Assembly (NCBI GenBank): GCA_031002005.1
Contig: JARYHS010008074.1
Span: 349,890,932 to 349,954,931 of the forward strand
Length of the DNA stretch: 64,000 bases
From: Vandiemenella viatica
Taxonomy: Eukaryota; Arthropoda; Insecta; Orthoptera; Morabidae
Direction: 5' to 3'
Below, one piece after another: positions 7,183 to 55,790 of this stretch (the first letter of the stretch is position 1; the number at the start of each line of letters is the position of its first letter). A program made the translations under genes and the position numbers. The notes under the pieces were generated by a model that searched no databases, was not told the origin of the DNA, and saw only the letters and a program-made list of their open reading frames with translations.

Positions 7183-7705
7183 TTAATCGTTGTTTGTGGT
7201 GTTAAGTGCCGAAAGTTTTAGAAATCCAGAAAAACTGCATGTACTTTCAAATTATCATGCTTCAGAGCTCTACTACCAACAGATTTTCGAGAGTTTGATC
7301 GGTGATTAATGAGGTCACTTCGATCTCCACTCTTGAAAACTAGTGTGTTCCAGATCGAAAGGTTATTGTTCTCCTTAAAATTTATGATTTACAAAATATG
7401 TATCAGTGACGACGGATTCGATTTCAGTCACACACTTTGGGAATACTCTTGCTTTCTCTCACTTGATAAGTTTCAGTTGCTTTACGGTACCTGCAGGGTC
7501 TATTTGCATGGCATACATCTCAAAATCCACACAACGTGGAAAGTTTTCTTTAGTGAGCTAATTTTTAAAATCTGTTTTTTGTTCTGAATTCTTTGGCAGA
7601 AGGTTTTCTAATTTATCAGCCAGAAGTCGAATGTGTGTACTGATTCTTAGGTAATTTATATTAAAAGTAATAATAATAAATAAAAACAACCTCTATATAC
7701 CATAC
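7183..7705. other. No recognised gene (copy B)
   Basis: Same sequence as 193-693, with a roughly 20-bp AT-rich insertion near 7664-7685. Confidence 0.4.
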
Positions 7706-9489: not shown

Positions 9490-10072
9490 TTCTACATCTA
9501 CATATATACTGTGCTATTCACAAATATTGTGGGTGGCAGAGAATGCTAAGCACCAATCCTGATTCTGTGCATTCCGATCCCGAACAGAACGAGGAAAGGA
9601 AGAATACATGAAAGTATCAATACGGCATCTTATTTCTCTAATCTTATCCCTACTGTCATTAGAACCTAAATAAGTTGGCGGGAGAATTGTTTAACTGCAC
9701 TCATAAATTAAAGAATTTCGCAGATTCCCCAATAAATTCAAACGAAAACGACGTCGTCTGTCTACCAAACAATCCCAGCCCAATCTATGTATCAATTCTG
9801 TAACACTTTCGTAAGGATTGTAACTAGCAGTCACGAGGCGAGCGGCTCTCTTCTGTACTTTCTCTAACGTTTCAAACAATCTCTTGCGATACGGATCCCA
9901 AACTCCACAACAGTAATCCAACTGCGGTCGTACTAGAGTTTTGTACGCTATTTCCTTTGTATGAGCATTACAACTTCTCAACATATTACCTATGAATCGT
10001 AATCTAGAATAAGGTTTGCCTACGACGGAAGTTATGTGCAAATCCATTTCATGTTGCATTACGCCCGATACT
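9490..10072 (-). pseudogene. CR1/jockey-type LINE 3' end, copy B
   Basis: Same as 2480-3062: minus-strand blocks SRLRFIGNMLRSC, VRPQLDYCCGVWDPY and RAARLVTASYNPYESV, then the 3' tail with GTAGATGTAG. One extra T near 10087 relative to copy A breaks the upstream frame. Confidence 0.75.
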
Positions 10073-10681
10073 CCAGGACAGTGGTTTTGATGCTGGGGAA
10101 GGCTGCGAATCTTTTACCCCTGCGGTCAAAGTCTCGATGGGAAGAGTCTTACCGATTTTTTTTTGCCCCCTATAATTCCGTCTAAAAATAGTATTTTTGG
10201 CAGCTGCTTTCACTGTAGGCCTCCTTCCTTTGTTTTCCGTCATCAACTACTTAAAATAATAAACAAACAAAAAGGAAAACAGAAACAAAAGGAAACACAT
10301 GCTACCTGCAAGAAAAGATCTATACAAATAAGTATTTTTAAATGTGTGTTTTATGAAATTTCAGGTACATTTGTCAATGACAAATTCATGAGAGGAATAT
10401 CGAACTTTTATGTGACTTCATTTGGTAAATTACATAAAAGAAATTAACACCACGAAGAAGTGGGGAGGTGACGGGAGAGATGGAGCCATGGACTTGGTGA
10501 GGACGTTTTTCAGGTAGGGCTGAAGACAAGCAACCAGCGGCATAAAGCGGAAGGCAGACCCAAACGGAGACGAATTCTTGTAGCGGCCCGAGATGCTTTG
10601 GGCCTGATGGCGTAAATGAAAATGATGAATGACATAAATGAATTTTCTCCTTTTCATCTAATAATGGACGTTTTGCTTACC
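10073..10681. other. No recognised gene (copy B)
   Basis: Counterpart of 3063-3679 with an 8-bp deletion near 10435. It probably includes the 3' flank of the hAT element; no terminal repeat was identified. Confidence 0.35.
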
Positions 10682-12847
10682 TTAATTAATTTGCTTATAA
10701 ATGAAATCAGCTCGTCTCCCCTTCTGCGCTGCGAAATGGTCTATGACCATTTCATTGAAATTTGGTCGATTCAGACGTTCTTTTTCAAGAGAACACATCG
10801 CAAGCGCACAAAGTCTGTCCTCGTTCATAGTATTTCGCACGAATGTTTTCACTCGTTTCAGTGTAGAGAAGCATCGTTCTGCCTCTCCAGTCGTCATTGG
10901 GAATGTTACTATTATCTGCAGAAGTTTAAACGCTCTCAGGGAACGCTTGTGCCAAGTTGTTTTCATAAAGAAAGTTCAATAAGGTCAAAGCACCTGTTGC
11001 TTTCATGAAATCTTTTCGGCTGTACAAGACATTTAGTTCACAACGTAACTCTGGAGATTTTAATTTAAACAAATTAACAGCTGTTTTTAGTTCTTGTTCT
11101 GGGAAAACAATGTGGTGTTTAGAAAACAATGACGGTTCAAACAACCGTGCAACTGACAAGTGTTCACTAAATCGGAATCTGTCACTGACCTGCGTTATGA
11201 TACGATCACAGACGTCTAGTGCTTAGTTGCACACACCTTCCGTGATTCCGTGAAACGTCCACGTTTTGCAGCTGGTTCTTCCTGCTCCCAGTGGTTGTCA
11301 AGTTCAAGTGAGGCCCTAATACGTTGAACAGCTGCTGCAAAGTGAGACACATATTCCATTGTCTTCACTGCATCAATATTCCTTTGCTGGAGTTCATTGA
11401 ATAGAATGACACAATGAGGCATGACTTTGTTAAAAAAACTGTAACCAAAAGAGGAAGTCATCGTCTTGCAGGAAACCCTTCAGTCCCAAAGCTCTGTTTA
11501 TTGTCCTGTAATCATTACCATCTTCGTCAATAATTTTTTCCATACACTCAAGAATTTCATTTCTGTATTTATATACAGTGGTTACGCACCGCGATTTGAA
11601 ATTCCATCTGATGGACTGAGGACAGGTAGGAATACGTTTCTTCATTATCTCGTCAAGAAACGCTGTGCGTTTAGGAGACTGAGAAAAAGAAGTAGAAATT
11701 CCTTCCAAGTTGCTAAAAAAGATCCGCACTTGTTTATTGCCTGTTACACAACGTTCGACAATTAAATTTAACTAATGTGCATAGCAGTGAATAAAGTGAG
11801 CATTCTTATACACCTCTTTGATTTTAACTTGAACCCCACCCTTGTTGCCGCTCATGACAGGAGCACCGTCGTAACACTGAGCTGTTAATTTTTCGGGTGT
11901 CTCATTTACTTTCATTTTCTGTAGTTCGCCGAGAATGACATCACTTACACCAGCTGCACAGCGACTCTTTGGTTGTATGAAGGAAATAAATCTTTCATTT
12001 ATTTTACCGAGTAACTCATATCGAATTATCAGAACCAGTTGTGACAAATTTGAACAGTCAGTGGTTTCATCAACTTCGATTGCTAGGTAATTTGTCTTTG
12101 ACAGTTCACTCTTGATAAGATTGAGACATACCTCATAAATCGATTCCAGCAATTCATTCTGAATTGTTTTGGACAGGCCCATGAAAACACGATTTTCTGA
12201 TTTCTCAATGTGCTGCTTCAAGATGCTGTCCAGTTCTGACATTAGATCAACTAATCCTCGAAAAATCCCTGGATTCTTGGAATTATCCGTTTCGTTATGT
12301 CCCCTCAAAGCAAGCTCGAATTTGCCACAAAATTTTATGCAGTCAACCAGTTTACTCAGTATGTATCGATTTTTTGATACATTTTCATTGTATATCTTTA
12401 GGCTAAGGCGGTAGGCACTATCTAGCTGGCACATAATGTCAACTTTCCCTAACAAAGAAAACTCAATGATTCCATTCAAATGTTTTTTCACTGGAATTAT
12501 GTTTTTTTCACTTTCGCGTGAAAATTCGTCAAGTTTGTAATTCCATTTTCTGTCCATGCGTTGTCATTACAATTCGTAACAAGACATGAGAAACAGAAAA
12601 ATGCATTCTTCACTTCACAACCACACAACCACTCAGCAGCATCATACATTGCTCTGCTAAAATTGCGAACATACCCTTTCCTGGATTTGCAATGTTTTTG
12701 TTCTTGACTGATGTTAAGATCAGGTTTCGGCGCACCAAGATTCTTCGCTTTTACCCTAACCTCGTGTTCCAAATTTTTTCCCAGTAAATTGCAAACCGAA
12801 TTCATTATTGCACTTTCAGAACGCCAGAAAGCTGCAACTATTCTCAA
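10682..12847 (-). pseudogene. hAT-like transposase (TTF zinc finger, DUF4371, hAT dimerisation), full but broken
   Basis: Transposase of a hAT-superfamily element, which cuts and pastes DNA and leaves 8-bp TSDs. Domains in minus-strand order: a TTF-type zinc finger (WLCGCEVKNAFFCFSC, about 12500-12640); a DUF4371/RNase-H-like core with YLAIEVDETTDCSNLSQLVL and AQCYDGAPVMSGNKGGV (about 11775-12550); a middle segment IRWNFKSRCVTTVYKYRNE (about 11590); and the C-terminal dimerisation block GEAERCFSTLKRVK near 10860. Breaks: a frame change at about 12500-12557, an in-frame TAG at 11772-11774 just after FIHCYAH, an extra T in the T run near 11430, a frame change near 11223, and a one-base insertion near 10928 that copy A lacks. 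About 720 codons in all, normal for this group. No intact protein can be made. Confidence 0.88.
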
Positions 12848-14859: not shown

Positions 14860-16581
14860 GCGTGAAATGTTAGAAGTCTGAATTGGGCAGGTAGGTTAGA
14901 GAACTTAAGAAGCGAGATGGAAAAACTTTAGTTAGATGTTGTTGGGATTAATGAGATTAAATGGAAGGACGCACAGGATTTCTAGCATGGGGAACACAGG
15001 ATAATTAGCACACAAGCTGTCAATGGAGTCACTGGTGTAGGATTTGTAATGAATAAGAAAGTAGGGAAACGGGTGAGTTATTATGAATAGTTTAGTGTCA
15101 GGATTATTTTTATGAGATTAGAAACTAAGCCCGTCACAACCACATTAGTACAAGTATATATGCCAGCGTCACAGGAAGATGACGAAGAAATGGAAAAAAT
15201 ATACGCTGAAATTGAAGAATTAATCCAATATGTGAAAGGGGAGGAAAATCTAATAATCATGGGTGATTGGAATGCAATAGTGGGAGACGGAAACGAGGGG
15301 AATACTGTAGGAAGTTTTGGTCTAGGAGAAAGAAATGAGAGAGGTAGCAGGTTGCTAGAATTTTGTGAAAGATATAAGCTAGTAGTGGCAAACACACTGT
15401 TTAAGAACCATGCAAGAAGAATATTCACCTGGAAACGTCCTGGTGATACAGGCAGATATCAGATAGATTATATCATGGTCAAACAGATATTCAGGAATCA
15501 ACTTCTATATTGTAAAGCGTACCCAGGAGCAGACATAGACTCGGTCCATAATTTGATAGTAATGAAGTGCAGGCTGAAATTCAAGCGAATAAGGAAGCAG
15601 CATAAGCAGAACAGACTGGAAGTGAATAAACTGAAACAATCTAGCATAAGAGAAAAATTTGCAGAGATGGTAGACTTAGGTCTAAGAAGTAACTGTGAAA
15701 GGAGCTCAACCGAGGACGAATGGAGTACATTAAAGACCGAAATAATGAAAGCTGGTAAAGAAACAATAGGCTTTAGGGAACAATCTGCCCGAAAACCTTG
15801 GATCACAGAAGAAATTTTGGAGCTGATTGATCAGAGAAGAAGGTACAAAAATGCTCAGGATGAAGCAGGAAGAGAGCAGTACAGGCAATTTAGAAATCAA
15901 ATAATAGGAAATTCAAAATAGCAAAAGAAAAATGGCTACAAGAAAAGTGTGAAGAAGTAGGAAAGGAAATGGTCGTAGGTAAAGCAGATGTTTCCTACAG
16001 AAAGATCAAACAGAATTTTGGAGAAATGAAGAAAAGAGGTATGAACATTAAAGCTGCCGATGGGAAACCTCTTTTAAGCTCAGAAGATAGAGCTAACCGA
16101 TGGAAGAAATACATTGAGAAACTGTATGTTGGGGACGACGTGAACAATAGTGTATTGGAAAAGGAAGGCAATGTCGACATTGATGACTTAGGAGATTCTG
16201 TTTTGAGAACAGAATTTAATAAAGCTCTGAATGACTTGAAAGCAAATAAGGCAGTTGGAATTGATGAGATCTCTGCAGAACTTCTTAAATCCCTAGGAGA
16301 GGAAGGAATCGAAAGATTATTCAAGTTGATATCAGAAAGTTATGAAACAGGAGAAATTCCAACTGATTTTAATAAAAATATCATGTTCACACTTCCAAAG
16401 AAAGCACAAGCCGACAAATGTGAGAATTATCGCACCATTAGTCTAACATCACATGCCTCATAATTACTGACCAGAATAATATACAGAAGGATGGAAAGGG
16501 TAGTAGAAGAGATAGTAGGTGAAGATCAGTTTGGGTTTAGGAAAAATGGCGGTACAAAGGAAGCAATTCTGTCTTTAAGAT
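14860..16581 (+). pseudogene. RTE endonuclease and N-terminal reverse transcriptase
   Basis: The exonuclease-endonuclease-phosphatase domain nicks target DNA. It begins about 14862 (NVRSLNWAGRLE), with stops before the long frame opens at ATG 15112. Motifs seen are QVYMPASQEDDEE, IIMGDWNAIVGDG, FTWKRPGDTGRYQIDYIMV and GADIDSVHNLIVMK. The last normally reads SDHN; here Asp is replaced by Val, which should kill the nuclease. A frameshift at about 15915-15922 leads into the linker (KEKWLQEKCEEVG) and the reverse transcriptase N-terminus (KANKAVGIDEISAELLK, ENYRTISLTSHAS), closed by a TAA at 16462-16464. Coding similarity resumes (RRMERVVEEIVGEDQFGFRK) up to the insertion at 16582. Confidence 0.88.
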
Positions 16582-17573
16582 TGTAATGTTCCGGATGAAA
16601 CCCATGTGTGCGTGTTTCTTTTCTCGTCGTGAGTGAGTCGGTCCCAGGGGAGGTTCTGCTAGTGTTTGAGGACGCCAGCCCTTGAGTGTTGTTATTAGAT
16701 GTGACGGATGGCAGAAAACAGTCCCGTGACAGGACCACTGCTAAAGAGCAGCCTGGACTGTTTCGGTAAACAAATAAAATAAAAAGTAAATCCGTATCCA
16801 AGAACTAAGGGTGAAGGGAAGCCTGGGAGTACAACCGATAGGAAAAACTTGTATTTTTATTATAAAAAAAGAGGTGGTTTTGTTGCATGTCCCGAGCCAA
16901 CCAGAAAGAAGGGCTTCCCTCCAACTACAGGCATTGGCTGACGTCATGAAGAGGGGGCGGAAAACGACGCTTCTTGGAGGCAGCGCATGAAGAGAAGAGG
17001 GACTTGTTGGCTACCGACCGAGAGGTGTAGATCGGCAGCGCAGCTGACCACGGAAGACACACCAGTGAGGCAGCCGGCCGTGATGGAGAGCTGGTCAACC
17101 CACCGACTGCACAACTTAGATTCGCCTGCACGGTAATCATCATTCAGAAAAAGGAACTTTTGCATCATCGTCGTTTTCACCCTAGTCAGCCCTGAGACAA
17201 ACTCTCTTGCTCCACCGAGAAAGTTATGTACCCTTGTGCTGCAAAAAGAAAATTAATCTTTGTAAAATCTTGTCAAGTAAACAATTAAAATACATAAGTA
17301 AATCGTAAAGTCAGATTGTGAACCTTGTTTTCAATAGATCCCATCCAATCATGTAATGTGTCATTTGACTTTATTAATAATTCTAGTTCTCCAATAATTC
17401 ATGTTTAAATAACAATACTTTGAGATCTGGATATCGCTTCCCTCAGAATAGGGTACACTCCAATCTCTGGCGCCCACATGAATTTATTTATACTTAATAT
17501 TATTTGGAAATTAATAACTGGTAGTGAACGACCACAGTAAGATCGAGAAGTCGCTTTCCTAACATAGGGAACA
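16582..17573. mobile_element. 992-bp insertion with 9-bp TSD inside the LINE (solo LTR candidate)
   Basis: The sequence CTTTAAGAT occurs at 16573-16581 and again at 17574-17582. Removing the insert and one copy rejoins the LINE reading frame perfectly (LSLRL to ILEGRVKKNKD). The insert starts TGTAATGTTCC and ends GGGAACA, i.e. TG...CA with short inverted ends, like a long terminal repeat. It has no coding potential. Against a standard LTR: the 9-bp TSD is longer than the usual 4-6. Near its right end two diverged copies of a roughly 35-bp motif (about 17423-17460 and 17540-17574) occur. Confidence 0.75.
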
Positions 17574-17582
17574 CTTTAAGAT

Positions 17583-18696
17583 TAATACTTGAAGGACGGG
17601 TCAAGAAAAACAAAGATACTTTTATGGCATTTGTTGATTTAGAAAAAGCTTTTGATAATGTTAGGTGGGACAAGAAGTTCAAAATTTTAAAGAAGTCAGG
17701 TCTAAGGTATCGAGATAGAAGAATACTCTATAAACTACATAAGAATCAAGGGCTGTAATAAAAGTAGAGAATCACGAGAGACATGCATCAGTTAAAAAGG
17801 GCGTGAGACAAGGTTGTAGTCTATCCCCGTTAATATTCAACTTGTATGTAGAAGAAGCAATGAAGAAAGTCAAAGAAAAATTTCCATGTGGCATAAGTTT
17901 TCAGGGAGAAAAAATCAGTAAGCTACGATTTGCTGATGACATTGTCTTGTTAGCAGAGAGGGCTGAGGATATTGAGAAGTTATTGAATGGCATGAACAAA
18001 ATACTGAAGGAAGATTTTGGACTGAATAAAACTCAAAGTAAGACAAAAGTGATGAAATTTAGCAGAAATGATACCAATACTAGCAGATTAAATATAAAAA
18101 TAGGATCGGATGCAATAGGAGAAGTAAGTGAGTTCTGTTACTTGGGAAGCAAAATTACAACCGATGGCCGAAGCAGGAGTGATGTTAAAAGCAGAATACC
18201 ACTAGCAAAAAGAGCCTTCATGAAAAAGAGAAACCTTTTAGTTTCAAATATTGATCTAGGAATTAGAGAGAACTTTTTAAAACTCTATGTGTGGAGCACA
18301 GCACTTTACAGTAGCGAAACATGGACTTTAGGAATACCGGAAAGAAAGAAACTTGAAGCATTTGAAATGTGGTGCTACAGAATAATGCTTAAAATTTGGT
18401 GGACAGACAAAGTAAGAAATGAACGAGTTTTGGAAATGATGGGCGTGAAAAGAAGTTTATGGAAGAAGCTTACAGAAAGAAGAGATAGGCTGGTAGGTCA
18501 TATTTTGAGACATGCTGGATTGGTTAATTTGTTAGTGGAGGGAACAGTCGAAGGTAAGAACGGTAGAGGAAGACAGAGATTAAAATATATGAAGCAGATA
18601 ATTGAGGACGTGGGTTGTAAGGGGTATGTAGAAATGAAGAGGTTAGCACAGGATAGGAAGGGATGGAGGATTGCATCAAACCAGTCTAAAGACTGA
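17583..18696 (+). pseudogene. RTE reverse transcriptase, C-terminal part
   Basis: Continuation of the LINE protein. It resumes with TFMAFVDLEKAFDNVRWD (the first catalytic Asp block), hits a frameshift near 17750, and then runs without a stop from about 17757 to 18696. Motifs: GVRQGCSLSPLIFNLYVEE, LRFADDIVLLAE (the catalytic FADD box, intact), FCYLGSKITTDG, YSSETWTLG, RRDRLVGHILRHAG and the end WRIASNQS, which is typical of RTE proteins. The start of the open stretch is not a true initiation site but the resumption after the break. Confidence 0.9.
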
Positions 18697-19688: not shown

Positions 19689-19690
19689 TA

Positions 19691-21110
19691 CACTCCTGGA
19701 AATTGAAATAAGAACACATTGACGCCGGTGTGTAAGATCCACCATACTTGCTCCGGACACTACGAGAGGGCTGTACAAGCAATGATCAAACGCACGGCAC
19801 AGCGGACACAACAGGAACAGCAGTGTTGGCCGTCGAAGGGCGCTAGCTGCGCAGCGGTTGGGCACCGCCGCAGTCAGTGTCAGCCAGTTTGCCGTGGCAT
19901 ACGGAGCTCCATCTCAGTCTTTAACACTGGTAGCATGCCGCGACAGCGTGTACGTGACCGTATGTGCAGTTGACAGACTTTGAGCGAGGGCGTATAGTGG
20001 GTATGCGGGAGGCCGGGTGGACGTACCGCCGAATTGCTCAACATGTGGGGCGCGAGGTCTCCACAGTACATCGATGTTGTCGCCAGTGGTCGGCGGAAGG
20101 TGCGCGTGCCCGTCGACCTGGGTCCGGACAGCAGCGACGCACGGACGCACGCCAAGACCGTCGCATCCTACGCAGTGCCGTAGGGGACCGCACCCCCACT
20201 CCCGGCTAATTAGGGACACTGTTGCTCCTGGGGTATCAGAGAGGACCATTCGCAACCGTCTCCATGAAGCTGGGCTACGGTCCCGCGCACCGTTAGGTCG
20301 TCTTCCGCTAACGCCCCAACATCGTGCAGCCCGCCTCCAGTGGTGTCGCGACAGGCGTGTATGGAGGGACGAATGGAGACGTGTCGTCTTCAGTGATGAG
20401 AGTCGCTTCTGCCTTGGTGCCAATGATGGTCGTATGCGTGTTTGGCGCCGTGCAGGTGAGCGCCACAATCAGGACTGCATACGACCGAGGCACACAGGGC
20501 CAACACCCGGCATCATGGTGTGGGGAGCTATCTCTTACACTGGCCGTACCCCTCTGGTGATCGTCGAGGGGACACTGAACAGTGCACGGTACATTCAAAC
20601 CATCATCGAACCCATCGTTCTACCATTCCTAGACCCGCAAGGGAACATGCTGTTCCAACAGGACAATGCACGTCCACATGTATCCCGTGCCACCCAACGT
20701 GCTCTAGAAGGTGTAAGTCAACTACCCTGGCCAGCGAGATCTCCGGATCTGTCCCCCATTGAGCATGTTTGGGACTGGATGAAACGTCGTCTCACGCGGT
20801 CTGCACGTCCAGCACGAACACTGGTCCAGCTGAGGCGCCAGGTGGAAATGGCTTGGCATGCCGTTCCACAGGACTACATCCAGCACCTCTACGATCGTCT
20901 CCATGGGAGAATTGCAGTCTGCATTGCTGCGAAAGGAGGATATACACGGTACTAGTGCCGACATTGTGCATGCTCTGTTGCCTGTGTCTATGTGCCTATG
21001 GTTCTGTCTGTGTGATCATGTGTTGTTTCTGACCCCAGGAATGTGTATATAAAGTTTCCCATTCCTGGGACAATGAATTCACGGTGTTCTTATTTCAATT
21101 TCCAGGAGTG
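19691..21110 (+). mobile_element. Complete Tc1-type transposon
   Basis: Both ends carry the inverted repeat CACTCCTGGAAATTGAAATA (first 20 bases of about 28 matching), and both are flanked by TA (19689-19690 and 21111-21112), the TSD of Tc1/mariner. Length is 1420 bp. It contains one broken transposase gene on the plus strand. GC content is higher than in the surroundings, which suggests a relatively recent arrival. Confidence 0.95.
19936..20955 (+). pseudogene. Tc1 transposase with frameshifts
   Basis: DDE transposase that excises and integrates the element. The likely start is ATG 19936 (MPRQRVRDRM), after which a 2-base shift near 19963 leads to QLTDFERGRIVGMREAGWTY, the N-terminal helix-turn-helix that binds the terminal repeats. 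A one-base shift near 20195-20210 moves to the frame that stays open to 20955. Catalytic residues: Asp in VVFSDESRF, Asp in LFQQDNARPHVS, Glu in SPIEHVWDWMKRR. I count 32 residues between the second Asp and the Glu; Tc1 normally has 34. Total length of about 335 codons is normal. Two frameshifts make this copy inactive. Confidence 0.92.
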
Positions 21111-21112
21111 TA

Positions 21113-33905: not shown

Positions 33906-34157
33906 TTTTTTTATTTAATTTTTTAATTTTTTATCTGCTTAACGTCTCTTAACAGCGAGGTCTTTAGAGATGGGAAAGGATTGGGACAAGGAATGTGAAG
34001 GAATTCGGCCATGGCCTTTTGAAGGAAGCATCGCGGAATTTGCCTGGAGTGATTTGGGAAACCATGGAAAACCCAAATCTGGATGCCCGGACGGGGATTC
34101 GAACCGCCGTCCTCCCGAATGCGAGGACAGAACGCTAACCGTTACACCACCACCCTC

Positions 34158-34159
<2 letters not shown>
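33906..34159 (-). mobile_element. tRNA-derived SINE, full length
   Basis: On the minus strand: tRNA-like head with box B GGTTCGAATCCCCG, body, 3' tail AAGACCTCGCTGTTAAGAGA and an A-rich end. It belongs to the tail subtype with the TCTCT...AGAGA stem. Its head abuts a (TA)n tract. Confidence 0.9.

Positions 34160-34201
<42 letters not shown>
34160..34201. repeat. (TA)n microsatellite
   Basis: About 20 TA units between two SINEs of opposite orientation. Confidence 0.95.
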
Positions 34202-34203
<2 letters not shown>

Positions 34204-34240
34204 ACAGCTGTTTGTTTGTATTTTCTATGACCTTTTTTTT

Positions 34241-34437
34241 ATTCGGGAGGACGGTTGTTCGAATCCCCGTCCAGGCATCCTGATTTGGGTTTTCCATGGT
34301 TTCCCAAATCACTCAAGGCACAAGCCGGGATGCTTCCTTCAAAAGGCCATGGCCGAATTCCTTCGCATCCCTTGACCCCCATCCTTTCCCGTCTCTAAAG
34401 ACCTCGCTATTAAGAGACGTTAAGCAGTTTTAAAAAA
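34241..34437 (+). mobile_element. tRNA-derived SINE, lacking first part of head
   Basis: Starts at ATTCGGGAGGACGG, keeps box B (GTTCGAATCCCCG), body and the CGTCTCT...AGAGACG tail. It shares subfamily-specific features with the inverted neighbour at 33906-34159. Confidence 0.9.
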
Positions 34438-38775: not shown

Positions 38776-39493
38776 AATCGAAAACATTCGCAACGGACCC
38801 CATGTAGTTCTGAAGAACAAAAATATTAACACGAGTACCGAAGGTTAAATCAGCAGCATAAATACGTCAATAACAAACACGAAGTAGCGACTGTTTGATA
38901 TGATCTGGAGTTACCTCGCAGAATATGATAATGTGATGGTTCTTCTTTCATAAGATAGAAGGTTTTCCGCCTGTTATCAAAGCTGCAATTGTATTCTAGC
39001 AACGGGAGATAAATCGTCCATAGCCTAAATGAACCTACCATCCCTGCACTCACCTGGTATGGTATCTGGAAACTGAAATCCGCCGGTCCTGGCAGTATAG
39101 AGGCCTCTCATTATAGAGTCAGCCTGTAAGAGCCCGGCCTCACTCATTGGTCGTGTTAACAAAGTCCTGTGTAATTTTCACTTAGTTGAATCAATATACT
39201 ATCGATATTTAATCACTTGCTAGTTTGGGAAATCACAGTACCTAAGCCTAGAGCCACGTACCATCTTCACATAATAATGCAAAGTTTAAATCCCGATTTC
39301 CGGACCGATAGTCGAAGGACCACTCTCCCGACCGTTCAGCATCCAGGGTCAGTGAAGCGATTAACGCTCAGTGGCAGAGGCATGGTTGATCGAGAATGAA
39401 TTCCTATCACACATATGACACAAGTGGTGAGAGGCACATCCATTACTTCCATTCACCATAGTTGTTCTCAGGTTCAACACAAGCTGGGTGGAT
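37326..39493. other. No recognised gene; poly-A tract
   Basis: An A tract of about 32 at 38739-38770 may mark an old retroposon end. A moderately GC-rich patch occurs at 38500-38600. No coding similarity. Confidence 0.4.
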
Positions 39494-40359
39494 GTACAGT
39501 CGGGGACACAATTCGCGAGACCACTCGCCTTTCGATTATGCTTCGATCTACACAGGAATACCGCATTGGACAGCATAACTGGTAGGTGGTACACTAAATT
39601 CATAAAAAATAGACCTCTCATACTCAGCACTTTACCCAAGACTAAAAAAAAGAGCCCGCGCAGCAAGAAACCCGCAGACGCTCAGAGTCAAAGTTAAGAG
39701 TTCTACAATTAAAATAACCATTAATATCATCATTTAGGTCATAATAATTATTGAAATAACCAAATCGATTAATTATAGATGAATGATAACATTTTTTTCG
39801 TAATTTTGATAACCATTGCATATTCCCCCCCCCCCCTCGAATAAACAGTTGACAATTCGCTAGAAAACTCAATTGTATGAAGAATACCGAAAAGAATCAC
39901 TAAATTACGGACGGAAAACCAATAAGAGAGAGTTAATGGACGTAGTTACACTTTCTAGCGCTGCAGCGTTCTAGAACAAATACACACAAAGGTTGAGGGT
40001 AAGCAGATAGAACATTTACGAAAGAACTCTAATGGTAAACTAAGTCAAGAAATATAAATAAACTATTTCTAGAAATTTAAATGGTACGGAATATTTACAC
40101 CTTAATTTTGTTTCAACTGTATCATATTTAGAAGGTAAGCTTAACTTGATCGCAGTAGCGACAGTTTTAGTGATAATAATAATAATTAAGAACAGTAAAT
40201 AAATAAATAAATCCGTCTGCAATGTGAATTAGCGGTTCCCATTTTAAATCTGGAATATGGAAGTAGGAAAACATTCATATATCTCTTTGTTTCTAACTAA
40301 CACTGATACTTCTATAAAATTTTCTGTCAAGCATTACTTCCTGCCTTCCAAGTCCGATC

Positions 40360-40530
40360 GGTTATAGGTAACACTGTTACCTGACATTCGGGAGGACGTG
40401 AATTCAAACCTCGTCGGGCATCCAATTCCAGTATTCCATGGTTTTCGTAAATCTCTCCAGTTCAACTCCAGAAATGATCCTTCAAAAAGCCATGGCTGAA
40501 ATTTTTAACCGATCCTAGTTCCCACAATAC
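40360..40530 (+). mobile_element. Degraded SINE in left arm
   Basis: TGACATTCGGGAGGACGTGA, TTCAAACCTCGTCGGGCATCC, then CATGGTTTTCGTAAATCTCTCC and TTCAAAAAGCCATGGCTGAA follow the SINE body. The mirror copy is at about 45540-45720. Confidence 0.7.
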
Positions 40531-40591
40531 TATCATGATTCATATCACATTGGCGTCGAAGAAATTAAGAAGACGAAAAAAAAAAAATGAA

Positions 40592-40800
40592 CATGGTGGG
40601 TACGTGGTAACACTCTAAGCCCACTTTCGCGAGGTCGTGGGTTCGAATCCCCATCTGGCCATCCAGGTAAGCGTTTTAGATGGTTTCCCCAAACCACTCC
40701 ATGCGGATGCCAGGATGGTTTCTTCAAAAGACCATCGCCGAATTCCTCCCCAGTCCTTTACTGCCTCTAATGACATCGATGAGATGTAAAGCTAGAAGGA
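40592..40800 (+). mobile_element. SINE in left arm
   Basis: Head with box B GGGTTCGAATCCCC, body GGTTTCCCCAAACCACTCCA and TTCTTCAAAAGACCATCGCC, and a tail ending GATGTAAAGC. The mirror copy is at about 45290-45490. Confidence 0.8.
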
Positions 40801-40889
40801 AAAAATAATTTCTCATATAAAAATAATGACATCTCTGTGGTGTGTTTTGGACCTTTTCCTTATTGGATTTATCTTATTCAACAGCCGAA

Positions 40890-41146
40890 TTTTTTTTTTT
40901 TTTTTTTTTTTTTAACAGTTTAACGTCCCTTTTTAACGACGTGGTCTTCAGAGACGGGAAAGGATGGGGGCAAGGAATGGGAAGGAATTCGGCCATGGCC
41001 TTTTGAAGGAAGCATCCCGGCATTCACCTGGAGTGATTTGGGGAAACCATGGAAAACCCAAATCTGGATGCCCGGACGGGGATTCGAACCACCGTCCTCC
41101 CGAATGCGAGGCCAGAACGCTATCCGTTACACCACCACGCTCGGTC
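40890..41146 (-). mobile_element. SINE unique to the left arm, with 11-bp TSD
   Basis: A full-length minus-strand SINE starting with a T tract (its poly-A). CAACAGCCGAA flanks it at 40879-40889 and 41147-41157. The right arm has the uninterrupted site around 45180. It is well preserved: box B GGTTCGAATCCCCG, body and tail are close to the family consensus. Confidence 0.95.
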
Positions 41147-41219
41147 CAACAGCCGAAAATGGTAGTGAATGGACTAGAGTGAAATTTCCAAATGTGGAGA
41201 GTCTCTAGTTCGGTGTTGT

Positions 41220-41465
41220 CTTAGGGCTGGTCGACGTCGAAATCATTATAGAGGAAAAAGGATTGGGGGCATGTTTTGGGAAGGAATTCAGCTATGGCCA
41301 TTTCACGGAATCATCCCGGTACTCACGGAGTGATTTCGATTAATCATGCAATATCGAAATACGGATGTATGCACGAAGATTTGACCCCCTGTCGTTCCGA
41401 ATGGGATGGCTTGGGTGTTACCGGGACTCTAGGTCACTGGTGCGATTCCGATCAGGGACATGGTT
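41220..41465 (-). mobile_element. Degraded SINE in left arm
   Basis: GGAAGGAATTCAGCTATGGCC and ACGGAGTGATTTCGATTAAT follow the minus-strand SINE body with many changes. The mirror copy is at about 44870-45110. Confidence 0.65.
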
Positions 41466-42526
41466 GTTAAAGTAGATATTGTTGTATGTCTTGTGTCATC
41501 TTTCAGTTGTATGAGCAAAAAGGATTTGGAAATACATCAGTACACAGGATAATCAAATAAGATGGCTTAGCTGGATGAATGGATATCGGGAGGAATGCCA
41601 TCAAAAATTTAAAGATATTTTTATTCAAACAAAAATATTTCACAGGTCCACCTCATCTCACAAAAAAAAAAAAAAAAAATATTCTTTGTTTGGTGCCAAC
41701 TAGTAACATGGCTGCGTTCTAAAAAGGTATTAGGATTTTAAAAAAATGGAAACTAGGTGAACTGTAGCGAAGCTCTTTAGTAATTTCAGTTGAGTGTATG
41801 GGATTTAATCTCTTTAACACTATGCGTGGTCATTTTGTATGAAGAAATTCTTCCTGCTGGCTCAAGCAAATTACACTTCAGATGCAAGGAGGTAGTAACC
41901 GATCTGACAAACGTTTCGAGGAAGTGTTTATTTACCAGTGGCTCTGAGGAAGTGAAGAACACTTGTTCAGTAGAGTTTGCTATAACAAGGTTTGTGAATA
42001 TGACCAACCGTACTCGAAATATGCCCTTTTCGAATTAAGAGCACCTACAAATACAGTGACAGCCATTTTTCGAAAGTAACAGAAACAACTTCATATAACA
42101 CATTATTAAAATTACTTGATAGTAGTTACAGGACTGATGAAAATATTGAAAAATGACATTGAACTAATACGTATTAATCATTAAAAATTTCTGAAAATTA
42201 CTTTCCGAGGATTTTGACTTCAGCATACTCCCATTGCATCTTATAACGTTCTACTTGCACTGTTTGATTAAAAAATTAATTTATCAATATTCCGAAATAA
42301 TTGCGATTTTTTAAAAAAATACTGGACGTTCACGTTATTGAAAATTGACTTGCCTCCATCTGCTGATCTAAATATTTTATGCCCTTTCGTGCCTTAGTCT
42401 GCTCCGGTTTATATTTTTCAGAGTATTGTGTCAGCCTTTACAGAGGTAATGTGGCTCACTATTGTGAAGTCAACACAAGACGAACTCTACACTCATTCTA
42501 AATCAACCATATGCGAGGACGAACTC

Positions 42527-42592
42527 GAATCGGTGACCTTTAAAACGCGATCCAGTGTTCTAGCCCCTACACCGCTAGCGCCAGCTTAAGTA
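42527..42592 (-). repeat. tRNA-like sequence in left arm
   Basis: On the minus strand, GCTGGCGCTAGCGGTGTAGG...GGTCACCGATTCGAGTTC resembles box A and box B of a tRNA-derived head. No full cloverleaf was verified. The mirror copy is at about 43792-43860. Confidence 0.45.
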
Positions 42593-42831
42593 TCTTGGTC
42601 GGGACTCTAGCGAAGCAATTTGTGAATGTGTCTGCGGTCGTGGTTTGCTTACACGGAAGACAATTCCGTAGGCCCATAGAACAAGGAAATCATCAGACAT
42701 TTCAGTCATGCGATTTTCTTTATCCTCGTTCAACTATCTTGCTTATATTGCTACCTGGGGCTCTTGTCTCACACAGTTAACAGACAAAAGAATTATACGC
42801 GAGTATAACCGTACATCCTCGAGGAACCAGG

Positions 42832-43545
42832 CGACATCTGATAGGCTACGCGAATTTGAAGCGTTGCAATAATTCTTCTCACTTTGGGATCCACCATGGC
42901 ATTTTATACAAGCAAGAATGGGCTTGGAAAAATACCGCTGTCAGTCTTACAGTTAGTGACAATGGCTAATTCCATATGCAGTGGAGCTTTTAAAATTCTT
43001 ATGCCTGCATTCTGAAAGAAAAGGATTATTGCTTTTCAAACTGGAATATGCTGCATTTGTAAAAGGAAAATGATGTTTTCTGCGAAAAAGTAATTGAAAG
43101 GTTACATATGTGGTTATAAAAGTGGATGCATTGTGGTTGACTCCGCGTTCATGAGAAACGATGTGATTAAGATCTGAAATCTTAGTTGATCAAATATTTA
43201 AGCGCCTACTACTAGGCTGCAAAGATAGATGTATTAAAAAAGATTCATGGCCGAGTCAGTCTGTGATTATTGTTCCTATATATATAAATGTTAGGTTCAA
43301 TTTAAAAAACTGAGCGTTGTGGACGAGCGATAATGTTCTGGCCTCGTATTCGAGAGGATGCAGGTTCAGATCCCCTTCCGGCCATCCAGATTTGGATTTA
43401 CTACCGTTTCTCCAAATCACTCCAGGCGAACGTCGGTATAGGTTCATCAAAAAACCCATTCCTTGCTCCCAGTCAATTCCCGTCTGCAATGACCTCGAAG
43501 TCGAGAAGTCAAGCTGGAAACCAATTTTAAAAAAGTTTAGAAAGC
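42832..43545. other. Loop of the palindrome
   Basis: 714 bp of single-copy sequence between the arms. It holds one SINE (43313-43530) and no recognised gene. Confidence 0.85.
43313..43530 (+). mobile_element. SINE in the palindrome loop
   Basis: Head GGACGAGCGATAATGTTCTG, box B region GCAGGTTCAGATCCCC, body CTCCAAATCACTCCAGGCGA, tail TGACCTCGAAGTCGAGAAG and an A-rich end. Confidence 0.8.
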
Positions 43546-43791
43546 CCTGGTTCCTCGAGGATATACGTTTATACTCGCGTATAATTCTTTCGTCAGTTAA
43601 CTGTGTGAGACAAGAGCCCCAGGTAGCAATATAAGCAAGATAGTTGAACGAGGATAAGGAAAATCGCTTGCCTGAAATGTCTGATGATTTCCTTGTTCTG
43701 TGGGCCTACGGAATTGTCTTCCGTGTTAGCAAACCACGACCGCAGACACATTCACAAATTGCTTCGCTAGAGTCCCGACCAAGATACTTAA

Positions 43792-43860
43792 GCTGGCGCT
43801 AGCGGTGTAGGGGCTAGAACACTGGATCGCGTTTTAAAGGTCACCGATTCGAGTTCGTCC
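43792..43860 (+). repeat. tRNA-like sequence in right arm
   Basis: Mirror of 42527-42592: AGCTGGCGCTAGCGGTGTAG to CACCGATTCGAGTTC. Confidence 0.45.
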
Positions 43861-44601
43861 TCGCATATGGTTGCTTTAGAATGAGTGTAGAGTTCGTCTT
43901 GTGTTGACTTCACAATAGTGAGCCACATTACCTCTGTAAAGGCTGACACAATAGTCTGAAAAATATAAACCGGAGCAGACTAAGGCACGAAAGGGCATAA
44001 AATATTTAGATCAGCAGATGGAGGCAAGTCAATTTTCAATAACGTGAACGTCCAGTATTTTTTATAAAAATCGCAATTATTTCGGAATATTGATAAATTA
44101 ATTTTTTAATCAAACAGTGCAAGTAGAACGTTATAAGATGCAATGGGAGTATGCTGAAGTCAAAATCCTCGGAAAGTAATTTTCAGAAATTTTTAATGAC
44201 TAATACATATTAGTTCAATGTCATTTTTCAATATTTTCATCAGTCCTGTAACTACTATCAAGTAATTTTAATAATACGTTATATGAAGTTGTTTCTGTTA
44301 CTTTCGAAAAATGGCTGTCACTGTATTTGTAGGTGCTCTTAATTCGAAAAGGGCATATTTCGAGTACGGATGGTCATATTCACAAACCTAGTTATAGCAA
44401 ACTCTACTGAACAAGTGTTCTTCACTTCCTCAGAGCCACTGGTAAATAAACACTTCCTCGAAACGTTCGTCAGATCGGTTACTACCTCCTTGCGTCTGAA
44501 GTGTAATTTGCTTGAGCCAGCAGGAAGAATTTCTTCTTACAAAATGACCACGCATAGTGTTGAGAACGCAGCCATGTTACTAGTTGGCACCAAACAAAGA
44601 A

Positions 44602-44654
<53 letters not shown>

Positions 44655-44869
44655 TGAGATGAGGTGGACTTGTGCAATATTTTTGAAAGCGACCAATTGC
44701 CTTTTGTTTGAATAAAAATGTCTTTAAATTTTTGATGGAATTCCTCCCGATATCCATTCATCCAGCTAAGCCATCTTATTTGATTATCCTGTGTACTGAT
44801 GTATTTCCAAATCCTTTTTGCTCATACAACTGAAAGATGACACAAGACATACAACAATATCTACTTTAA

Positions 44870-45110
44870 CAACCATGTCCCTGATCGGAATCGCACCAGT
44901 GACCTAGAGTCCCGGTAACACCCAAGCCATCCAATTCGGAACGACAGGGGGTCAAATCTTCGTGCATACATCCGTATTTCGATATTGCATGATTAATCGA
45001 AATCACTCCGTGAGTACCGGGATGATTCCGTGAAATGGCCATAGCTGAATTCCTTCCCAAAACATGCCCCCAATCCTTTTTCCTCTATAATGATTTCGAC
45101 GTCGACCAGC
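44870..45110 (+). mobile_element. Degraded SINE in right arm
   Basis: Mirror of 41220-41465. Confidence 0.65.
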
Positions 45111-45289
45111 CCTAAGACAACACCGAACTAGAGACTCTCCACATTTGGAAATTTCACTCTAGTCCATTCACTACCATTTTCGGCTGTTGAATAAGATAAA
45201 TCCAATAAGGAAAAGGTCCAAAACACACCACAGAGATGTCATTATTTTTATATGAGAAATTATTTTTTCCTTCTAGCTTTACATCTCAT

Positions 45290-45490
45290 CGATGTCATTA
45301 GAGGCAGTAAAGGACTGGGGAGGAATTCGGCGATGGTCTTTTGAAGAAACCATCCTGGCATCCGCATGGAGTGGTTTGGGGAAACCATCTAAAACGCTTA
45401 CCTGGATGGCCAGATGGGGATTCGAACCCACGACCTCGCGAAAGTGGGCTTAGAGTGTTACCACGTACCCACCATGTTCATTTTTTTTTT
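45290..45490 (-). mobile_element. SINE in right arm
   Basis: Mirror of 40592-40800. Confidence 0.8.
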
Positions 45491-45539
45491 TTCGTCTTCT
45501 TAATTTCTTCGACGCCAATGTGATATGAATCATGATAGT

Positions 45540-45720
45540 AGTGTGGGAACTAGGATCGGTTAAAAATTTCAGCCATGGCTTTTTGAAGGATCATTTCTGG
45601 AGTTGAACTGGAGAGATTTACGAAAACCATGGAATACTGGAATTGGATGCCCGACGAGGTTTGAATTCACGTCCTCCCGAATGTCAGGTAACAGTGTTAC
45701 CTATAACCGATCGGACTTGG
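45540..45720 (-). mobile_element. Degraded SINE in right arm
   Basis: Mirror of 40360-40530. Confidence 0.7.
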
Positions 45721-46591
45721 AAGGCAGGAAGTAATGCTTGACAGAAAATTTTATAGAAGTATCAGTGTTAGTTAGAAACAAAGAGACATATGTATGTTTT
45801 CCTAATTCCATATTCCAGATTTAAAATGTGGAACCGCTAATTCACATTGCAGACGGATTTATTTATTTATGTACTGTTCTTATTTTTATTATTACCACTA
45901 AAACTGTCGCTACTGCGATCAAGTTAAGCTTACCTTCTAAATGTGATACAGTTGAAACAAAATTAAGGTGTTAATATTCCGAACCATTTAAATTTCTAGA
46001 AATAGTTTATTTATATTTCTTGACTTAGTTTACCATTAGAGTTCTTTCGTAAATGTTCTATCTGCTTACCCTCAACCTTTGTGTGTATTTGTTCTAGAAC
46101 GCTGCAGCGCTAGAAAGTGTAACTACGTCCATTAACTCTCTCTTATTGGTTTTCCGTGCGTAATTTAGTGATTCTTTTCGTTATTCTTCATACAATTGAG
46201 TTTTCTAGCGAATTGTCAACTGTTTATTCGAGGGGGGGTGGGGTGGGGGAGGGGGAAATATGCATTGGTTATCAAAATTACGAAAAAAATGTTATCATTC
46301 ATCTATAATCAATCGATTTGGTTATTTCAATAATTATTATGACCTAAATGATGATATTAATGGTTATTTTAATTGTAGAACTCTTAACTTTGACTCTGAG
46401 CGTCTGCGGGTTTCTTGCTGCGCGGGCTCTTTTTTTTTAGTCTTGGGTAAAGTGCTGAGTATGAGGGGTCTATTTTTTCATGAATTTAGTGTACCACCTA
46501 CCAGTTATGCTGTCCAATGCGGTATTCCTGTGTAGATCGAAGCATAATCGAAAGGCGAGTGGTCTCGGGCGAATTGTGTCCCCGACTGTAC

Positions 46592-48829
46592 AATATATTC
46601 ATAGTCACGAGTGGTATCCAGATTAAATACGCTTATCTATACACTCTCAACTATTACAGATAACCACAACTGAATTTGTTGGGAATGTTTGTAGTATAAA
46701 TAATCCAGTAAAATAAGGTGAAAAAACAGGCAAACCTCGGAATGAAAGATAACAAGCTGTAAATTTGTATAAACCTTTGTTTTGATATTCTATAAGGTGG
46801 TTCAAAAGTCTCACAGAATATCGTGTACGCTAGTCAAGATGTTGAAAAGGTCAAAGGTCACAAAAACTTTTTTAAAAATAAATATCTCGTTTCATTTACT
46901 TTAAATATTATTTTGAGTTATAAGAAAAGTTATGGAGCATAAAATTGTCTAAAAATTACGTTTTAGACAATATTTCATAGATTTAACCCTCCTTGAGACA
47001 GAGCGTGGAGAGTGGGGAGCGCTTAGCCGCGCGGACGATAACGCTAATGTACAAAACGTTAACGGTAGAATCCCATAGCCAGTACGATTTATAAACGAAG
47101 TTATTTATTACAAATGTTCCAATTATGAATAAACTAATTATTTACTAATTAATAAATTGTATTTATGGTTATTATATTATTTATAAATCGTATGTTCGTT
47201 TAATAATATTAATAATAAGAAAAATTTTAAAAAATTGGCAAGAGTAATTTGGAGACACAAACGCATTTTATTAAAATGGTTAATCATTATTTTATGAAAA
47301 TCAGTGCGTTACTAGTTATTGCGACACATGCAAATAGAATAAAACTGCGGCAGAAGGAGACATTTGTTTCGCTAATTCGTGAAGTAGTTTGAACTTGAAA
47401 TGTACACCATTTTACGATAAACAGCATAAACGCTACACTAAAGAAGGACCTTATTACCAACATACACCAATCCTCTGTAAGGAAGCCAGGAATATTTCAG
47501 TTTCGCTAACCCACTGATTATTAACAAGTATTAAATCTATACTATTAAAAATCTGTAAGCAAGCTGCATGTGTCTCTTTATTTGAACGGGACCCGTGCAG
47601 AAACTATCTCAGAAATTTGGATGGTATTTTAGAATTTTTAGAGCTAACGTGCGGAAAAAGCTAATGACATATGTACGGAATGAAGGAGGAAATATTTAAA
47701 TGCATTTCTAGATGTGTTATTATAATATACGCATCACACTGTAGTTGAGATGTTCACTCCTTTCAGGAAAACTGACAATAACATCACAATCTCTCTCTCT
47801 TTTTGGGAGCATGTTTCGCTTCTTGACTTCAACTATTTATCTAATCTGTTATCGGAAATTTAAAGCATTATATTAACGGAATATTATCAAGCGTCATTAA
47901 TACATAATTTACTGTAAGCATAGTCGCCATGATTATTAATATCTTTGACAGTTACAGACGACACGTTTTTAAATTTCCGCTGACTGCCGTACAATATTAA
48001 TGAAAAACGCTAATGTGTAATATGGATGCAGAAATCAGTTTTTTCTCAAAGAAAGGTGCCTGCAATAAACGTTAACAGGTAACGGTACATATTTCTTACG
48101 TGCAAATATTCCGTAATAATATCGCACAATGATCGTGTGTACAAATTTTGGCTGCTGTTCAAAACACAGCTGGTAGAATAAATTCTTTTTATTAAATTAT
48201 CAACATACCCATAATTTTGTAAAGTTGTAGCTTTTATCGCCTTAAGAGTTTTAAACTGAGTTTTTGATGACAACAACGTGGAACCAATAAAATTAAAAAG
48301 TAACTACGAATTCTTAAACCTCATGCTACACCGCATAAATTATAAAACTAAATCTGTTTTATGCTTTAATAAAACGTATCTGGTGTCTTTCTGATCCAGG
48401 CTGCATTTAAACCTAACTATAAACTTCGTTAATATTTTCTATTCCAAAATTAAAGTTTCTATCACGCACGCATAAATACATTCATGGTATGGCTTACGAA
48501 TCTTGACCATCTGGGACTACTTACATGTGGTTGAAACTGTGGCATTAGTAATATGGCGTCATTGAAATGAAAGGAAATTAAAAATAATTCTTGGCTACAT
48601 TTAAAACCAACCACAAACTTCGACAATGTTTTAGTTCAAAAATCCTATGTCCATTAAAACATTAACTGTTTCGCGATCGAAACTTGATGCACTGGAACAA
48701 CTTATATGCAACTGAAATAATGAACTGTGTCACACACCTTCCTCAGGTCATAAATTTCGAGAAAAAGTGTACACGAAAGCAAAATGAAACATTGCCATGA
48801 CATTCATGAATCTCCAAGTTAATATTTGG
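46592..48829. other. No recognised gene
   Basis: Very AT-rich. CTATACTATTAAAAATCTGT near 47557 resembles the beginning of a common insect interspersed repeat, but the assignment is not secure. No domain is recognised. Confidence 0.4.
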
Positions 48830-49830
48830 TAATAGAATAAGAATTTCTAGACGTTTCTATCATAACAGTGGCGCCACAATTTGACCAAGGATTCTTATTG
48901 AACTTGACGAAACAAATCGAAATAAAAGAATAAATGTTTATTGATATCTGTCTTAGTTCACGACTGAAAAACGATGTGGTTAAGCTGATATGGAGCCCGA
49001 ACCAGAAGGGATTTGGCAGTGCTATATCTTTCAAATTTGCCACATCTGTTTTTGAGGAAATGTTTTTGTAGAAAAAAAGTATATATATACCTGAGACGTG
49101 GTGTGACAGGAAAGTTGCGATACGGCGCAGAATTAATGGTACAGAAATTTAACAATCTCTAATGGCATTACAAGTCGAAGATAGTATCTACTCTGTTACA
49201 ACGAATTTAAGAGCGCTGGCAAGTTTTCGAGATGTAAGCATGCGAATAAATTCCTCGGATGTATTTAGTAAAGCATATTCGTTGCTTAATAACAAGTATG
49301 CACCTATCCATATTTTGACTTATTTTACATGATTCATAGATATTTTGTGGTTTTAAGGTTTCTTTGACAGTTTAAGCTCACTTGATTTTTTAGCCGTAAT
49401 ACACTGGTTGTACCAGAAGAAAAATTTCCATTGGCGCCGCAATTTGATGATACATTTTTATATAATTCGATTAGACGTTTCCAAACTTCGCTTAGTTCTG
49501 GAGATATAGTAGGTGTTACATTGATTGTGTGGTTATGTCGAAATGTGGCCAGTATCAGAAGAAAAAATTCTGGGGCATCGCAATTTTACGATGTCTTCTT
49601 AAGGCGAGACATTTCGACATCTCGCTTAGTTCTAGCCATATCGTGTGTCAAAGGTTTTGGCAATTTGCTAAAATGCGACCAGGAGCATTCTTATGCAAGA
49701 ATATGAGACATTTAGTTTTAGAGATACGTTATGTCAAAGGCGATGTGATTAGGATGATGTGTGGCTTGGGAAAGAAGTGATATTTCCCTTTCTGCCATGA
49801 TTTTAGGAATATTTTGAATTAAGATATTTA
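48830..49830. repeat. Diverged tandem-like repeat, second locus
   Basis: Repeated units with CTCGCTTAGTTCT(G/A)G...GATAT...TGTCAAAGG and a (A)CCAG(AA)GAAAAA block near 48985, 49415, 49485, 49550, 49620 and 49730. They match the units at 24900-25260. No gene. Confidence 0.5.
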
Positions 49831-50564
49831 GAAACCTAGGTTAGATATCGAAAGATTTTGTTCTTTACTTCAATATTATATTTGGCGTGAGTAACATCAC
49901 TGGAGATGGTTGTTGTTCTGTACTATTAATTCTGTGCCGCACCATAAAATATCTGTCGCATCAGGTCTGAGTACGTTTCTTTTTACTTTTATATACATTT
50001 TTTCTAGAGCAGTGTGTATTAAAAAGCGGTTATGGCAAATTATAAAGCTATGGCACTTCCAATTACTCTTCTTTAAAAAACGCTGAATGGAGGAAGTAAC
50101 GCAAAAGAAAATTTCATCCAGTTTGGCCGCCAGTGAAAAGGAGTTTTTAAGCTCAACAATAAATTATTAAGTTAATCCTCCATAGAGAATGATAATAATA
50201 TAATCAGAATACATAATTTTGTAACCAGCCCTCAACCATTTTTCTTTTTCCTTTAAAAACTTTTTTTTTTGATGACGAGATTAAAAGGCCCAAGAGGTAA
50301 AGTTATCAATTAAACAGAACCACTTAAGAGACATAAAACTTTTGGGCTTTTTGCACTAACTACTGATTGTCTGGGAATTAACAAGTTTGCATTAAGGCTG
50401 TGATCCAACATGCACGTCATTTGTTATGTGTGGTTTAAACTTAGGTTTGTCAGAACGTAACGACAGTGATCAGCTCACATAGTTCATGAATTTTACGTAA
50501 ATAAGCAAGAGATAATGGGACTCTACAGAACTGGTACACCATAGCTGAGTTTGTTTAGTGACTG
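49831..50564. other. No recognised gene
   Basis: AT-rich spacer. Confidence 0.45.
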
Positions 50565-53904: not shown

Positions 53905-55790
53905 TTTTTTAACCGACTTCAGAAAAAGGAGGAGGTTCTCAATTCGTTCATTGATATTTTCGCCAATTTTGAACCGATTTAAATGATTTTTTTTATTTGA
54001 TTTTTTTATTGGATAGGGTGTACCTCCAAAGTGGTCCCATACGAATTTCATTGAGAGACCACCCCTTTTACCCCTGTACACTACTAAATTTTTATACAAA
54101 CCCACATTTTTTATCCGATTTCGATGGAACTTGGGACATGTATAGTCAATAATAAAGAGAAAAATACTGTCAACTTTTGGTTTGTAAAAACTGAACCCCT
54201 TTTCCCCTATCCACCCCCTTAATTTTTGTTAATATTCTTTATACAAAGGTGCAGTCGACACCATTTAATTGATTTCCATTGAAGTTGCAATTACATGTAA
54301 TTTTTCAAGGAGAAGGTTTCTGACCAAAATAAAAAACCGCCCCATCTCTCCATTTATACCCCTCAATTTTATACAAACCTACATTTGTTATATGATTTTG
54401 ATTGATCTTTGCACAAGTATACTTTAAAATAAAGAGAAAAATCCTGTCAACATTTGGCCTACCAAAGCCCAACCCCTCTCCCTCCTTCCATCCCTTAATT
54501 TTTGTCAATGTTCTTTATAAAAAGTTACAGTTGACACCGTTCGACCGATTACCATGAAAGTTGGCGCTTATATCTGTTTTTTTCACGAAGAAGGTTTCTG
54601 ACCAAAATATCCAAAATCCATTAAACCGCTTAATGTTTATACAAACCCACAGTTTTTATCCGGTTTAGATAGAACTTAGCACACTTTTATTATAAAACAA
54701 ACAGAAAAATAATGTCAACTTTTGGTTTCCAAAAACTGAATCCCTCTCCCCGTTTCCACCCCCCTCGATTTTTGTCAATTTTCTTTTTAAAAAGCTACAG
54801 TTGACACCATTTGACAGATCTTTATGAAAGTTGGCTCATATTTGTATTTTTATGGAGAAGATTTCTGATCAAAAAACCACCCTAGCTCTCCTTTTACACC
54901 CCTTAATTTTTGTACAAACCTAGATTTTAATCCGATTTCGCTGGAACTTCGCTTGCGTATACTTTAAAACAAAGAGAAAAAGAAAAATACTGTCCACATT
55001 ACTTTCACAAAAACGCATACTCTATCCCCGTTTCTACCCCTTTAATTACTGTCAATATTCTTTATATAAAGTTACATTTTCTATCTGATATTGAAGGAAG
55101 TATTCACATATCTGCTTCAAACCAAACAGAAAAATACTGTCTACATTTTGTTTAGAGAAGGCAAACCCGTCTCCCCGTCTTTCCATCCCCTTAATCTATA
55201 CAAAGCTACAGTTTCTATCCGATTCTAAAGGAAATTTGCACACGTATACTTTAAAATATACAGAACAATTGTGTTTAAATTTGGTTGCAGAAGCCATACC
55301 CCTCTTCCCTTCTTCCCCCATCCCTCCTAATTTCCAATTTTCTTTATAGGTACCCACAGTTTTTATCAGATTTCGATAGAACATTGCACATGTATACTTA
55401 AAAATAAAGAGAAACGTAGTGTCTACATTCTGTTTACAAAACCCAACCGCTCACTTCCTTACACCATTTTATTTTTGCAAATGTTCTTTACACAAAGCTA
55501 CAGTTTTTATCCGGTTTCGGTGGAACTTTGCACATGTATACTTTAAAACAAAGAGAAAAATACTGATCACACTATCTTTACAAAAACCAAACTACTCTTC
55601 GCCTCTTAATTGTTTTTTATACATACCTACAGTTTTTATTTGATATAAACAGAAATTTACACACGTATACTTTAAATCAATCAGAAAAGACACTCTACAT
55701 TTGGTATAAAAAACCCAATCCCTCTTTCCCTTTACCCCCACCCCTTTTAATTTCCAATGTTATTTACAAAACACCACAGTTATAAATCCC
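53905..55790. repeat. Two-phase tandem array
   Basis: Starts with ACCGACTTCAGAAAAAGGAG, a motif I associate with insect interspersed repeats. The anchor TTTATCCGATTTCG(A)TGGAACTT recurs near 54108, 54388, 54654 and 54928 (spacing about 266-280), then near 55079, 55211, 55363, 55504 and 55634 (spacing about 130-152). In the first part each period holds two related half units (one with CAGTTGACACCATTTGAC); in the second only one type repeats. Confidence 0.85.

Follow-up and report, generated by a model that had tools for sequence, protein, structure and literature searches.

The DNA that we analyzed, a 64-kb stretch referred to below as the window, contains a 7.1-kb palindrome whose two arms of about 3 kb are 98.5% identical as reverse complements and enclose a 714-bp loop. 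The structure is truly in the sequence and looks biological, and it is a large palindrome of an already known kind. We interpret it, with moderate confidence, as a young inverted segmental duplication, probably produced by template switching. What makes this locus of interest is that a multikilobase palindrome has been kept in what is probably an insect genome, that the events that shaped it can be ordered because one arm carries a SINE and the other the corresponding empty site, and that the arms have possibly exchanged sequence by gene conversion.

Results

The palindrome was delineated by self-BLAST and local alignment across the 64-kb window, which identify the left arm (39493-42831) and the right arm (43546-46592) as reverse complements of each other. 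Its parts are as follows:

39493..42831, + strand: left arm, with 98.5% identity to 43546-46592 in reverse complement (2,976 positions aligned)
42832..43545, no strand: loop of 714 bp, without counterpart in the arms (local alignment)
43546..46592, - strand: right arm (self-BLAST, local alignment)
41720..41813, + strand: 94-bp segment present only in the left arm (alignment; breakpoints inspected)

The overall geometry, a 7.1-kb palindrome with arms of about 3 kb around a 714-bp loop, is therefore as the first-pass annotation had it, including the inner ends of the arms, but both outer ends had been placed one base short of their true positions, 39493 and 46592. The left arm measures 3,339 bp and the right arm 3,047 bp. 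In the local alignment of 39493-42831 with 46592-43546, 2,932 of 2,976 positions match, which leaves 44 substitutions (18 transitions and 26 transversions), and there are 10 indels, of 268, 94, 32, 21, 13, and 2 bp plus four of 1 bp. Self-BLAST returned three main blocks on the minus strand, 39493-40889/46592-45179 (97.6% identity), 41147-41634/45189-44702 (99.4%), and 41816-42831/44561-43546 (97.8%), and, in the intervals, two small ones of 42 and 39 bp. Since E = 0 for each of the main blocks, a chance origin of the similarity is ruled out. The arms also differ in microsatellite length, and the sequences that flank the palindrome on the left and on the right are mutually dissimilar. All of the differences reported earlier (scattered substitutions, a SINE in one arm, an indel of roughly 94 bp, and unequal microsatellites) are thus found in the alignment. 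Moreover, the 44 substitutions, the 10 indels, the one-arm SINE facing an empty site, and the nonmatching flanks agree with the earlier judgment that this is not a simple assembly mirror, an explanation that we reject. As for the 94-bp segment, no target-site duplication could be seen by eye around 41720-41813, and the difference therefore probably corresponds to a deletion in the right arm.

The substitutions are not evenly spread along the arms. In two tests that were picked after inspection of the data, the longest substitution-free run, which spans 608 aligned positions and includes the SINE gap, was equaled or exceeded 28 times when 44 differences were placed uniformly in 20,000 trials, and 9 of the 44 substitutions were found to fall in the innermost 182 aligned positions (P = 0.0012). 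The pattern fits either arm-to-arm gene conversion or mutation that is itself uneven. The 18:26 ratio of transitions to transversions departs significantly neither from 1:1 (one-sided P = 0.15) nor from 1:2 (P = 0.34); an absence of transition bias has been reported in grasshopper pseudogenes (as cited in PMC5083911).

SINE-derived sequences allow the history of the arms to be read. The palindrome holds one SINE specific to the left arm, three relics common to both arms, and one relic in the loop:

40890..41146, - strand: SINE, left arm only, flanked by two copies of CAACAGCCGAA that start at 40879 and 41147
40380..40587, - strand: SINE relic common to both arms, counterpart at 45481-45688, 66.5% identical to the left-arm SINE
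40589..40758, - strand: SINE relic common to both arms, counterpart at 45310-45479, 76.6% identical to the left-arm SINE
41234..41406, + strand: SINE relic common to both arms, counterpart at 44934-45102, 72.0% identical to the left-arm SINE
43309-43534: degenerate SINE relic in the loop, 69.7% identical to the left-arm SINE

The left-arm SINE, to which the 268-bp left-only alignment gap corresponds, is bounded by an 11-bp target-site duplication, CAACAGCCGAA, while in the right arm this 11-mer is single and uninterrupted, that is, an empty SINE site. Because the target-site duplication is on the left and the empty site on the right, the insertion postdates the existence of both arms. The three shared relics occupy corresponding sites in both arms and, most simply, predate the duplication; their arrival at matching places through arm-to-arm gene conversion would be a less simple alternative. 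Furthermore, the arm sequence itself looks much older than its duplication, since the arms share 98.5% identity, whereas the relics share just 66-77% with the left-arm SINE, the latter values comparing single SINE copies rather than a copy with a family consensus. The sequence of events thus seems to run from repeat-bearing DNA to inverted duplication, then to separate mutation of the arms, and finally to SINE insertion. We call the left-arm element a SINE because it ends in poly-A, is flanked by a target-site duplication, and has further copies in the window, of which the nearest full-length one (33909-34160) is 88.7% identical to it. To our own eye the element may also possess a tRNA-like head, for which ARAGORN and Rfam gave nothing. 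A pattern derived from the SINE had no match in viral contigs. Separately, two opposed SINE copies around a (TA)n run at 33909-34437 make up another inverted repeat that, at about 0.5 kb, is smaller than the palindrome.

The inverted repeat stops at the same sequence on both sides, TA followed by CAGTCGGGGACA:

39493..39513, + strand: left outer end, TGTACAGTCGGGGACACAATT, compatible with the TA plus CAG of a TA-targeting transposon
46572..46592, - strand: right outer end, identical sequence on the other strand

A 19-base end pattern, TA followed by CAGTCGGGGACACAATT, matches the window with up to three mismatches only at the two palindrome ends (0 expected), and the pattern TACAGTCGTGGAC with two mismatches gives three matches (0.78 expected), two of which are the palindrome ends. 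The 6-mer TGTACA, which is part of the inverted repeat, is present at both ends in direct and inverted orientation. Both ends thus read TA followed by CAG, but this TA sits inside a palindromic 6-mer. Of 51,900 positions, 272 have TACAG, a motif chosen post hoc, no more than 8 bp away; when TA-flanked starts are defined more loosely, about 2.1% of points have one at that distance or closer. Sharing of a 6-mer or longer is not unusual, being seen in 655 of 4,983 pairs of 28-mers drawn at random. The outer ends show no target-site duplication of 8-10 bp, the longest direct repeat within 14 bp being the 6-bp TGTACA. Nor do the two ends of either single arm carry, within 14 bp, a direct repeat of at least 4 bp, which makes the arms unlike two separate insertions; two independent insertions of one element are accordingly rejected. 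The terminal 68 bases show no folding excess (39 and 113 of 200 shuffles fold as well). Self-BLAST and the end-pattern scan found no other copy of the palindrome within the window, and a 25-base end pattern had no match in viral contigs, a poor place to look for one.

No gene was found in the palindrome by the checks that we made, and coding content is rejected as far as these predictions reach. The longest frame encodes 149 aa (43256-43705, minus strand). A Pfam scan, at E up to 0.1, of 20 of the palindrome's stop-to-stop frames of 62 aa or more gave nothing above curated cut-offs and no transposase, and 18 of these frames had no match at all. The other two gave weak matches below the curated cut-offs, to RPOL_N and ARM_LRRK2 (44540-44821) and to EII-Sor (42544-42777, E = 0.0047), which we take as chance. 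Within the palindrome Rfam returned no match and ARAGORN no tRNA. The arms contain no detectable tandem array; the search, which arrays under ~70% identity can escape, turned up just a 23-bp unit in two copies and a stretch of T.

Discussion

The same sequence is found in two opposite arms, and no duplication of the insertion type bounds either of them. From this structure, from the arm-specific differences, and from the arrival of a SINE after the arms, all directly visible in the alignment, we infer the following route. A 3-kb stretch with its three SINE relics would have been copied inversely beside itself, most likely by template switching during replication or repair. The 714-bp spacer may be the remnant of a one-sided loss at an originally tighter center; deletion of one palindrome arm is described as lengthening the spacer and improving stability (PMC10766186). 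The arms would then have mutated separately, to about 1.5% substitutions, a SINE would have landed in the left arm after the duplication, and part of the arm sequence may have been homogenized through gene conversion between the two. By eye, no junction signature of template switching is apparent. What speaks against a duplication is that homology ends on both sides at TA followed by CAG, which is not required of a random duplication end. ODIRA-type inverted duplications likewise consist of inverted genomic copies around a unique spacer, but the model as presented in PMC10766186 involves 40-80 nt between short inverted repeats, and the 714-bp loop is far longer. An inverted triplication differs in having a direct flanking copy, and self-BLAST reveals none within the window. 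A literature search in general terms (palindromes, foldback elements, hairpin RNA) returned no paper on this locus.

The main rival interpretation, which we hold to be possible but rather unlikely, is that the palindrome is a nonautonomous DNA transposon with terminal inverted repeats of about 3 kb, inserted at a TA. Such an element would have taken in SINEs and then become palindromic through aberrant gap repair, and a TA-targeting transposase encoded elsewhere would have moved it. It would account for the 19-base pattern shared by the two ends and found nowhere else in the window, and for TGTACA in both orientations at each end, and a transposase of the appropriate class exists in the genome, as illustrated by the Tc1-like element at 19689-21112, which contains a transposase frame. 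The ends of that element are, however, unlike those of the palindrome, no second copy is present in the window, shared 6-mers and nearby TA-flanked starts are common enough by chance (see the frequencies above), shuffled sequence folds as well as the terminal 68 bases do, and the three SINE relics common to both arms demand extra steps. Elements of the Tc1/mariner class have TA at their ends and then CAG, a pattern with which both palindrome ends are compatible, though their TA belongs to a palindromic 6-mer. The repeats of the palindrome are about 3 kb long and those of the Tc1-like element in the window 29 bp. Mutator-like elements are characterized by target-site duplications of 8-10 bp. 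The foldback transposon Tetris of Drosophila virilis resembles the palindrome in that a noncoding middle lies between long inverted repeats, which in Tetris reach 1,735 bp, and differs from it in the 8-10 bp target-site duplications and the tandem arrays in the arms that are described for it (PMC4079207). If the ends were transposon ends, the palindrome would be an unusual foldback element; if not, it is a routine inverted duplication. Distinctly unlikely, in our view, is the more far-reaching notion of a TA-targeting transposon family, in a large insect genome, whose terminal inverted repeats are about 3 kb long and bear SINEs. Such a family would spread 7-kb hairpin-forming units and represent a giant type of foldback element that belongs to neither the Mutator nor the P superfamily.

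Two further explanations have much lower probability than the transposon. An assembly chimera, in which copies of a dispersed repeat from two different places were joined inversely, is improbable. The assembly is imperfect nearby, as the window includes a gap of 1,000 N (4632-5631) between the two copies of a near-identical 4.2-kb direct duplication, but this sole run of N is far from the palindrome. The two copies of that direct duplication (1-4219 and 6991-11222) differ by 2 mismatches in 4,206 positions and by 11 indels, and probably reflect a scaffold join at which sequence was falsely duplicated or both haplotypes were retained; the palindrome arms, in contrast, carry many substitutions, and neither has an insertion-type duplication of its own. 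Slightly less probable still is a candidate hairpin-RNA locus, whose transcript would form near-perfect double-stranded RNA over about 3 kb, which Dicer-2 would process into siRNAs against matching sequences, the SINE family among them. The geometry suits this, and in Drosophila the arms of one described hairpin-RNA locus derive from transposons (PMC10317233), but an inverted duplication yields the same geometry without selection. What the palindrome has in common with Drosophila loci of this type is near-perfect inverted arms and a loop. An inverted segmental duplication remains the reading that we prefer.

The stability of such a structure had been regarded as notable, a view that our analysis bears out only in part. 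The 714-bp spacer makes persistence less puzzling. In yeast, increasing the spacer between Alu inverted repeats from 12 to 200 bp cut rearrangement ~20-fold and an increase to 1.5 kb cut it 31-fold, although rearrangement with a 30-kb spacer was still above the spontaneous level, and spacer length was without effect where long single-stranded DNA was involved (all as given in PMC10164571). By analogy, cruciforms should form less readily with a spacer of 714 bp, even if the yeast figures are not directly transferable to palindrome arms that are much longer than Alu. Because of that length, folding of the palindrome DNA may still occur.

Additional Features of the Window

The Tc1-like DNA transposon at 19689-21112 has perfect 29-bp terminal inverted repeats adjoining TA and a 323-aa frame that matches DDE_3 and HTH_Tnp_Tc3_2. 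Two minus-strand frames, 3680-4222 and 11772-12563, match Dimer_Tnp_hAT and DUF4371 and are probably fragments of hAT-type transposases. A remnant of a non-LTR retrotransposon (15091-18696) comprises an RVT_1 frame and an endonuclease frame, the latter scoring 27.0 bits against a Pfam cut-off of 27.4. Among the best 120 of 507 matches of its reverse transcriptase, which include identities of up to 66% (65% for the first), the closest named one is from Schistocerca gregaria (60%); other named matches among these 120 are from Schistocerca, Diaphorina, and Cyamophila, and two labeled Klebsiella and Pseudomonas are taken as contamination. These matches make an insect the probable host. The palindrome's right flank contains weak inverted repeats, 49013-49171 and 49891-50062, which are 70-73% complementary. 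Farther along are a tandem array with a 268-bp unit and ~3.3 copies (54090-54981), in a stretch of strong GC skew, and an inverted repeat whose arms of ~170 bp are 85% identical (56283-56444/56818-56988).
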